Shown in pieces: positions 59,414 through 63,701 of a stretch of 64,000 nt of DNA. This DNA is from Prochlorococcus sp. AG-347-I06. Lineage in GTDB: Bacteria; Cyanobacteriota; Cyanobacteriia; PCC-6307; Cyanobiaceae. Numbering within the stretch: position 1 is the first letter of the stretch; each line of letters begins with the position of its first letter. The DNA is taken from the NCBI GenBank assembly GCA_003281605.1, contig QCBM01000002.1:124001-188000 (forward strand), read 5' to 3'. The notes beneath the pieces are model-generated. The model ran no database searches. It was given only the letters and a program-made list of their open reading frames with translations, and had not been told where the DNA came from. The translations under genes and the position numbers were made by a program.

Positions 59414-60574
59414 TTAGTAATCTACACCTCTTTTCAAATCAACTCCTACATTTGCATAATGCTTATGACAAACCATTTCAGAGTAGACATCAGCAAGATC
59501 AAAGTATGAAGGTTCATTTTTACATCTCCCAGTAATAACAACTTCTGTGTCTGCTGGTTTTTTTAAGAGTGTTTGATGTATCGATTCAACAGGTAGCAGC
59601 TCTAAATCAACTGTTGGATTCAATTCATCTAATATGATTGTTTTATACAAACCAGACAAAATAGCAGCTTTAGCAATTTCCCATGCTCTTTCAGCCTCAA
59701 CATAATCAATCGGTTGTTGCTGCCCTCTCCAGACGATAGCATCTCTGCCTGAACGTAAATGATCTACTAAATGAGGGTAACTCTCTCTCAAAGCTTCTAT
59801 GGCAGCATCTTCGGTATAACCATTCCCACCTTTTAACCACTGTAGTATTAAAACTCTATGACTTTTATCTTGAGATATTCCTTTACCGATAGCTTGAAGA
59901 GCCTTACCAAGGGCACTTGTGGATTTACCCTTTCCTTCACCTGTATAAATCTCAATTCCACCACTAGAACTACTTTGTCTGGTTTGTGTTGATAAGTTTC
60001 CTGTCAAACGCGGTCTCATTTCTGAATGGAGTTGGGATATTCTTACCAAAGAGGAAGGGGCTGCCCTTCCGGTAATAATTATTTCTAAACCATCTGGACG
60101 ATTTTGAAGAGAGTCAACTACTTCATTGATATCAAGCATTCCTAAATCAAGAACTGGATTCAACTCATCTAGTACAACAACAGAATAAAGAGAACTTGCA
60201 ATTGCTCCTTTAGCGATATTCCAACCTCTCTCAGCCTCACCAACGTCAAACTTTGTGACTTGGTCAGCAGTAAAAAATTCAGATCTTCCTGTCCTAACAT
60301 GATCAATTAAATGTGGAAAGCCTCTTTGTAAAGCCTCTATAGCTGAATCCTCGTCGTATGGCCTCTCAGGACCTTTTAAAAATCTTAGAAGTAAAACTCT
60401 TGACTGTCTTTTTTCGCATATACCTAATCCTATTGTTCTGAGAACTACTCCCAAAGCAGCCTGACTTTTTCCCTTGCCCTCTCCATCATAAATATGTAAT
60501 TGACCTTTTGATCTTTCCTGACTGTCACTTGCAGTGACAATTCCAATTCCTCTATTTCTACTCGTATTCGCCAA
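59414..60574 (-). CDS. Two-domain CobO/BtuR-type protein
   Basis: 386 residues made of two tandem copies of the CobO corrinoid adenosyltransferase P-loop domain. Copy 1 has IYDGEGKGKSQAALG (Walker A 31-37) and VVVLDELNPVLDLG. Copy 2 has IYTGEGKGKSTSALG (212-218) and IILDELNPTVDLE. Intervening ED(S/A)AIEAL..(F/Y)PHL(I/V)DH motifs are also repeated. Both look intact. A classic CobO is about half this length, so either it adenosylates corrinoids as an internal dimer or it has another role. It converges with the MoeZ-like gene. Confidence 0.8.
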   Translation of the reverse strand: MANTSRNRGIGIVTASDSQERSKGQLHIYDGEGKGKSQAALGVVLRTIGLGICEKRQSRVLLLRFLKGPERPYDEDSAIEALQRGFPHLIDHVRTGRSEFFTADQVTKFDVGEAERGWNIAKGAIASSLYSVVVLDELNPVLDLGMLDINEVVDSLQNRPDGLEIIITGRAAPSSLVRISQLHSEMRPRLTGNLSTQTRQSSSSGGIEIYTGEGKGKSTSALGKALQAIGKGISQDKSHRVLILQWLKGGNGYTEDAAIEALRESYPHLVDHLRSGRDAIVWRGQQQPIDYVEAERAWEIAKAAILSGLYKTIILDELNPTVDLELLPVESIHQTLLKKPADTEVVITGRCKNEPSYFDLADVYSEMVCHKHYANVGVDLKRGVDY

Positions 60575-62000: not shown

Positions 62001-63105
62001 TTATAAATGAATCATTTGTGAGGAGCCTAAGAAAGACTGATTAAATTTATCTAAATGTGTCGCACTTATAAAACATTGACTATCTTTACCAACAGAATTT
62101 AATAACAAATTTTGCCTGGTTAAATCTAGTTCAGCTAAGACATCATCCAATATCAGTATTGGAGGAATATTTAGTGTTTTAGTTAATAAATCGAGTTCAG
62201 CCATCTTTAAAGCCAAGATAAAAGTCCTTTGCTGTCCTGAGGAACCATATTTTCTAACTGAAACATTATTAATTAGAAACTCAATATCATCACGATGTGG
62301 TCCAAAATTACATTTACCAGTCAATGCTTCTATAGAACGCTGATTTAAGAGTTGATCTGCTATTTTTTTACTAATAACTTCTTCTTCTTCTTCTTCTGGA
62401 CTTATATTTTGTATCCCCGAAAGATAATTTATGTCTATTTGCTCTTGAGATTTACTTAGATGATTATGCCAATATTCAACATATGGTTTTATTTTTAATA
62501 AAGCTCTTCTTCTACGCCTAAAAATTCTTGTACTTATTATTGACATTTGAATATCAAAGCTTTCAATAATATCTGTGGATTGGGTTTTTAAGAAACTTTC
62601 CGAACGCCAAAAATGACTTCTTTGTTTTAAAAGCCTGTTAAATCTACTTATCAGGTCTAAATATACTGGTTCAAGCTGAGATACGACTTTATCAATCCAC
62701 GTTCTTCGATAACTAGGTTCACTTCTAACAATATCTATATCATTAGAACAGAAACATACACTTCGGATATAGTTCTTTATTTCACTTTGTTTTTTCAAGA
62801 TTGATTCATTTACATAAATTCTTTTAGGGCCTTTTCGGAATAAATTTAACTTTAAATCGTCTTTAAAATCTATCTGTCCTATAACTACAGCCATATCACT
62901 GTCGTTCTCTATTAAATCTTTATCGCTTAGTGCTCTATTAGATTTTAATTGACTTAAAAATTCAACTGATTCAAGTAAGTTTGACTTACCAACACCATTG
63001 CAGCCAAGAACAATTGCTCTTTGTTCTTTTAGATCAATTTCAAAACTTTTATGGTTCCGAAAATTTTTAATTTTTAATTTATTTAAAAAAATTTTTTTTG
63101 TGCAT
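62001..63105 (-). CDS. recF: DNA repair protein RecF, 5' end out of frame with its ATGs
   Basis: The full RecF chain is readable: FLNKLKIKNFRNHKSF, Walker A LGCNGVGKSNLLES, the signature YGSSGQQRTFILAL, and Walker B PPILILDDVLAELD. It loads RecA on gapped DNA. The first in-frame ATG is only at 62894, downstream of Walker A, so a start there would delete the ATP site. Two upstream ATGs at 63105 and 63109 are out of frame by an A8/T7 tract (63085-63099). One base less or more would join them as MHKKIFLN or MNAQKKIFLN. Without a change, an ATT at 63092 would give about 363 residues. See the finding. Confidence 0.85.
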
Positions 63106-63169
63106 TCATTAATTAAATTAGCTAAGTTTAAAATATTTAGATTTTCTTTAAAGAAATTGAAAAATTAAA

Positions 63170-63243
63170 GGGCATGTAGCTCAGTTGGATAGAGCATCAG
63201 ATTCCGGTTCTGAGAGTCGGGGGTTCGAATCCCTCCATGCTCG
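63170..63243 (+). tRNA. tRNA-Arg(CCG)
   Basis: 74 bases. The acceptor stem GGGCATG pairs with CATGCTC (one G-U), the anticodon arm TCAGA/TCTGA holds CCG, and the T-loop is GGTTCGAATCC. Discriminator G, no encoded CCA. It is divergent from recF, about 60-80 bases away. Confidence 0.95.
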
Positions 63244-63254
63244 TAAAGTGATTT

Positions 63255-63701
63255 TTAAAGTTTATATCCCATTACTCTTATTCCATTGGGATCTAGTATG
63301 AATCCATTTTCCTCTAGACTTCTAAAAGAAGATACTGGAGCCTGTACAGAAATACTGCATCCGGGCATTTCTCTATTTATTTTCTCAAGAGTTACTTGAA
63401 GCAATATTGAATAGTAAATTTGCTGATTATTCCCTGGTAATGCGCTTAAATTCCACAAGTTAGCATTCAATCCTCTATCGGACGTAACCCTTACAAAGCC
63501 ATATAATTTATTTTTTAATTCACTCTGTATGGTAAAAAAGAAATTACTTTTTTTAATAGCCTCAGAAAGAGGCTTTATTGGAAATGTCTCGCAACCACAA
63601 TTCGCTAAAAGTTTGTTAACTTCTTTAGCTAAGGGGATTTGAGAAGAGTTAACAAAATAACCTTCTGGAAGAACAAGTTTTTTTTTAGAAAAATATTGCA
63701 A
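63255..63701 (-). CDS. Possible GNAT-type N-acetyltransferase
   Basis: 148 residues. The order of elements suggests a GNAT fold: an early helix (LAKEVNKLLANCG), a strand with FFFTIQSELKNKLYGFVRVTSD, WNLSALPGNNQQIYYSILLQVTLEKI resembling motif A, and a C-terminal SFRSLEENGFILDPNGIRVMGY resembling the end of acetyltransferases. The Q/RxxGxG/A loop is not canonical. Substrate unknown. It follows ppc by 3 bases on the same strand and is likely in one operon with it. Confidence 0.6.
   Translation of the reverse strand: MQYFSKKKLVLPEGYFVNSSQIPLAKEVNKLLANCGCETFPIKPLSEAIKKSNFFFTIQSELKNKLYGFVRVTSDRGLNANLWNLSALPGNNQQIYYSILLQVTLEKINREMPGCSISVQAPVSSFRSLEENGFILDPNGIRVMGYKL

Follow-up and report, generated by a model that had tools for sequence, protein, structure and literature searches.

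A proposed non-canonical AUU or AUC start codon of recF, conserved across most of the family of Prochlorococcus

Genes with a conserved AUU or AUC start codon are a known but tiny kind, represented by infC and, with a GTC start, by sigR. The infC gene, encoding initiation factor IF3, starts with AUU in E. coli and with AUC in Streptomyces, as described in the sections of PMC5472188 and PMC1805508 used here. IF3 discriminates against such starts in E. coli, and in Streptomyces it represses the GTC start of sigR (PMC5472188, same sections). The latter start is GTC in 32 of 34 Streptomyces species and GTT in two; it limits stress-protein synthesis and had been misannotated (PMC5472188, same sections). 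AUU and AUC starts are extremely rare: according to the section of PMC5622118 used here, one of 61,358 ancestral AUG starts switched to AUU in 36 groups. In the open-licence literature searched, no recF gene with an AUU start was found for cyanobacteria or Prochlorococcus.

Our analysis of the window, i.e. the whole 64,000-nucleotide stretch of DNA from Prochlorococcus sp. AG-347-I06, and of its relatives makes it very probable that recF starts at a non-canonical AUU codon (63092-63090), the canonical start having been replaced once, early in the family, and the replacement kept since. Like infC, recF would then be a core gene with a conserved non-canonical AUU/AUC start (PMC5472188 and PMC1805508, sections as above). 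Unlike recF, which mostly has no Shine-Dalgarno sequence, E. coli infC has a strong one (PMC1805508, same section), and the IF3 feedback loop of E. coli infC is proven, whereas control of recF by IF3 is hypothetical. The sigR start is likewise non-canonical clade-wide, but it differs from that of recF in codon and gene, in an extensive conserved ribosome-binding site, and in having experimental proof (PMC5472188, same sections). Compared with other cyanobacterial recF genes, only the start codon and the leader differ, the protein being an ordinary RecF (TIGR00611). The 5' end of the gene comprises the following features.

62001..63092, minus strand: recF coding sequence read from the ATT, 363 residues plus stop, a complete frame matching TIGR00611
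63090..63092, minus strand: proposed start codon ATT (AUU), placed by the family column, the outgroup column and the alignment with the Met of solved RecF
63085..63099, minus strand: A8T7 tract containing the ATT (A8, 63099-63092; T7, 63091-63085), not conserved in length
63103..63105, minus strand: out-of-frame ATG (ATG CAC), 13 nt before the ATT
63107..63109, minus strand: out-of-frame ATG (ATG AAT), 17 nt before the ATT

On the minus strand the 5' end thus reads ATG AATGCAC, then A8, then T7. The first-pass annotation had pointed out that the RecF frame has no ATG, GTG or TTG before the Walker A motif and that two ATGs stand just ahead of the A8T7 run, and both statements were confirmed. 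From stop to stop the frame is 387 codons long and open throughout, with none of these codons before Walker A (GCNGVGKS); the first canonical codon in it, an ATG well beyond that motif, opens a 297-aa ORF (62001-62894). Both upstream ATGs are out of frame. The encoded protein is an ordinary full-length RecF, scoring 278.2 bits against TIGR00611 (cut-off 172) and matching positions 1-339 of the 339 in the profile with residues 26-368 of the open frame. In phmmer searches, the residue encoded by the ATT pairs with the first Met of the solved RecF proteins 5z67, 5z68 and 5z69 (alignments inspected for 5z68 and 5z69), and the N-terminus of E. coli RecF fits the same register. Gene finders restricted to ATG, GTG and TTG would miss or truncate such a gene, the ORF list of the window being an example. 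Elsewhere in the window, a minus-strand ORF (59414-60574) has two GEGKGKS motifs in two similar halves, and its first listed start is TTG.

Conservation of the start was assessed at the start column, defined as the codon ten positions before the F of the FRN motif. The family sample comprised 232 genomes: 121 of the genus, that of the window included (113 counted of the 159 genus genomes with a recF match, plus 7 more genus genomes), and 111 of other genera. The latter were counted out of about 266 matches (82 first, then 29 from genera still unsampled, with G246 counted once) and cover, by hand count, 52 of the 58 other genera seen. The outgroup set consisted of the 30 best-scoring loci and 20 more, one per additional cyanobacterial family.

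The start column holds ATT in 187, ATC in 35 and ATA in one of the family genomes (223/232); among named contigs, which overlap with the other genome set, it holds ATT in 80/80. The remaining nine genomes have ATG (four: L180, L310, L320 and L415), CCC (three) or CTC (two). All five CTC/CCC genomes (L426, L430, L432-L434) possess an in-frame ATG one to six codons upstream, so that a canonical start is supplied there and the codon in the column is free to change. In the outgroups, the column is canonical in 50/50 genomes sampled from other cyanobacterial families, with ATG in 18, GTG in 11 and TTG in one of the first 30 loci, and ATG in 16, GTG in three and TTG in one of the further 20; in outgroup locus L211 it is GTG. 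A rare ATT start at 63092, which the first-pass annotation had listed last among its options, is thus supported by the family column together with the canonical outgroups. As in the infC-like class, the recF column is non-canonical clade-wide, and 176 of the 223 ATT/ATC/ATA genomes have no usable canonical codon, none occurring in frame between the upstream stop and the column.

Relatives with names at 95-98% identity are mostly Prochlorococcus. The same A8T7 run is found in 28 of the 29 nearest relatives, the exception being L037, and 25 of the 29 have no in-frame ATG, GTG or TTG from the upstream stop to FRN; in the other four, the sole in-frame canonical codon is an ATG far upstream, 27 or 35 codons from the ATT. 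Judged against these genomes, the missing canonical start of recF in the window is more than chance.

A conserved Ile codon could also lie inside a longer protein, and the Ile-codon control was mixed, so that a conserved Ile by itself proves nothing. Within the genus, ATA occurs at the column in 0/121 genomes versus 218/596 pooled over five other conserved Ile columns; three of these five are likewise mostly ATT. In the other genera, the single comparable column shows a nearly identical ATT/ATC/ATA split. Among the 82 first-sampled genomes of other genera, mean diversity at codon positions 1/2/3 is.381/.227/.595 downstream of the column and.606/.563/.601 upstream; in the genus, including the genome of the window, the values are.064/.015/.176 downstream and.112/.168/.221 upstream. 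Judging from these values, coding-type substitution begins at the start column, with a third-position bias downstream and none upstream.

Such upstream extensions were also screened for in 200 kb of the genome of the window (about one-eighth of it) against the divergent relative G022, with 180 matched ORFs. In ten of the 180, the match extended for 12 or more residues ahead of the first canonical codon of each genome. The longest stretch, 40 residues, belongs to recF, and its substitutions are spread 3/0/14 over the three codon positions. Next comes a stretch of 35 residues (2/7/13) that overlaps an ORF on the opposite strand, and the third candidate (6/4/10) is only 40% identical; recF is the strongest of the ten.

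These data bear on two other possible sites of initiation. Translation from an in-frame canonical codon further upstream, with the ATT as an internal Ile codon, could draw on the 47 of 223 ATT/ATC/ATA genomes that have some in-frame ATG, GTG or TTG between the upstream stop and the column; in 17 of the 223 such a codon lies within nine codons upstream, and recF could start there in those genomes. However, the other 176 have none, the upstream codons show no codon-position bias, and the probable -10 box described below stands downstream of many of these ATGs (codons -36 to -45). Moreover, 21 of the 232 family genomes have an in-frame stop no more than three codons upstream of the column, and 19 of these have no ATG, GTG or TTG from the stop to FRN, the two exceptions being L164, with a TTG inside the conserved L..L.L, and L185, with an ATG two codons before the ATT. 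We consider such an upstream start highly improbable as an explanation for the family. Translation from a Leu or Val codon (TTG/GTG) shortly ahead of Walker A, which would deprive RecF of its first beta strands, is harder still to credit: most genomes of other genera do have a TTG or GTG 5 to 18 codons past FRN, but there is no such codon before Walker A in the window, the codons from the ATT to Walker A vary mainly at third positions, and these TTG/GTG codons are also found in many outgroup genomes whose start column is ATG or GTG.

Two further readings concern the A8T7 tract and the integrity of the gene. Slippage by RNA polymerase, or ribosomal frameshifting, on A8T7 could join an upstream ATG to the RecF frame; A8 is a plausible slippery run, the frame of the second ATG reads A AAA AAA, and both ATGs, 13 and 17 nt upstream, are present in 86/121 genus genomes. 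The suggestion that one A fewer would join ATG-CAC to the frame is borne out by natural A7 alleles in 5/121 genus genomes (L108, L117, L124, L141, L147), where this ATG is in frame without slippage. Tract length, whose comparison among relatives had been proposed as a check, speaks against a conserved slippery run: A8T7 occurs in only 69/121 genus genomes, the A-run ending in ATT ranges from 1 to 8, and some genomes, e.g. L037, L054 and L049, have the tract broken by C or G. The gene thus tolerates gain or loss of single bases immediately before the ATT, which is what an untranslated leader would allow. In the sequences inspected from outside the genus the tract was absent, though ATT/ATC persists. 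Since the window and most of the genus have upstream ATGs open to the site, the window alone could not decide the matter, whereas the family does: in 64 of 222 evaluable ATT/ATC/ATA family genomes, no ATG, GTG or TTG in any frame lies within 60 nt and open to the site. An upstream start running into the site, present in the window and most of the genus, is therefore lacking in these 64. Frameshifting or slippage, one of the options originally raised, is thus very unlikely, although it would rank ahead of the other alternatives considered here. The analogy with AT-rich endosymbionts offered in its favour is not applicable, as the relatives are mostly Prochlorococcus, which is free-living. From its variation, the A/T run at the recF start is best read as incidental.

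A frame without a canonical start might also point to a decaying gene or to a sequencing indel in the window. Nevertheless, the full-length frame and strong protein conservation of recF are found in 159/200 genus genomes searched, including 64/66 of those at least 90% complete; the pseudogene reading was rejected because relatives keep this frame. The sequencing indel is excluded, since many genomes assembled independently of one another show this arrangement at the start. Decay or indel is the least probable of the alternatives, to the point of being negligible. With these set aside, initiation at the ATT remains the preferred reading, and we turn to the leader in front of it.

63114..63120, minus strand: TAATTTA, the window copy of the TANN[TC]TA element, probable -10 box of recF, 28 nt before the start codon
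63170..63243, plus strand: divergent tRNA-Arg (CCG), the upstream neighbour, found with ARAGORN

A TANN[TC]TA element stands 26-31 nt before the start column in 215/232 family genomes. In 78 usable loci of other genera, its distance to the start codon is tight (sd 1.1 nt) and that to the tRNA-Arg loose (sd 14.3 nt), which assigns the element to recF; in the genus itself neither distance varies enough to be informative. The element is probably the -10 box of recF, in which case the transcript would start about 16 nt before the AUU. A promoter consensus scan of 62900-63300 gave no match, and the window leader folds no better than shuffled sequences, with no stable fold. A Shine-Dalgarno-like 4-mer (AGGA, GGAG or GAGG, 4-16 nt before the site) was found in only 11/232 genomes; a strong compensating Shine-Dalgarno sequence like that of E. 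coli infC and of sigR is therefore not a feature of these recF leaders. The L207-type genus g9 (L430, L432-L434) and L426, which have lost ATT/ATC and gained an in-frame ATG upstream, also lack TANN[TC]TA.

The divergent tRNA-Arg(CCG) lies next to recF in 281/283 family loci and 29/30 further loci, and beside recF in 0/30 outgroup loci; on this comparison the pairing is a family-specific gene arrangement. In several genera (e.g. L154, L150, L157), the gap between the tRNA-Arg and TANN[TC]TA contains short inverted repeats whose sequences differ, among them TGAGACT..AGTCTCA in L154 and TTTCTTTAAAGAAA at about 63144-63157 in the window; perhaps these form an operator or a hairpin.

The 41 family sequences form a monophyletic group (support 1.0) in a tree built from 71 full-length proteins. 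ATC is the codon of the deepest family branch (L422), and the five CTC/CCC genomes fall together in a single nested clade (0.986); some inner nodes are weakly supported (0.405, 0.737). A midpoint-rooted tree of 232 taxa on a short N-terminal alignment did not recover the family as monophyletic. A Fitch count on the larger short alignment, in which the CTC/CCC genomes were not included, gave 4 changes between canonical and non-canonical codons and 9 among ATT, ATC and ATA. Family monophyly, the ATC of the deepest branch and the nested CTC/CCC clade fit a single early switch to a non-AUG start in the family, with a few later returns to AUG. The start position, its conservation and the reversions are what sequence comparison demonstrates.

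As to function, a -10 box of the TANNNT type would probably place the 5' end of the recF mRNA at the point given above, which would leave a short A/U-rich leader as the loading site of the 30S subunit. Pairing of the initiator tRNA with AUU or AUC would be imperfect, and with AUU it would involve the first two bases only. A Shine-Dalgarno sequence is usually missing from the leader, so one would expect weak initiation and little RecF, and the non-AUG start probably keeps RecF synthesis low. A more speculative reading, which we regard as rather doubtful, is that RecF is deliberately throttled family-wide by AUU/AUC on a short leader without a Shine-Dalgarno sequence, its level rising when initiation fidelity (IF3) falls. 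In the genus, infC starts with ATG in 13/15 loci examined (one truncated, one not resolved), so that an IF3 feedback of the E. coli type through the infC start codon is not apparent.

Although AUG could be regained by changing one base, only a few returns are observed in this very abundant bacterial family, and the retention of AUU/AUC suggests that weak initiation of this repair protein has been selected for. The AUU/AUC relatives, the AUG revertants and the AUG/GTG outgroups offer a natural comparison; within the genus, the A7 alleles bring an ATG (MHKK-) into frame four codons ahead of the ATT, so that AUG- and AUU-started recF can be compared in natural variants. If the throttling reading were true, recF would have taken on a control of the AUU type, which infC shows in E. 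coli but not in the genus, and single-strand-gap repair in these bacteria would be coupled to the state of the ribosome.
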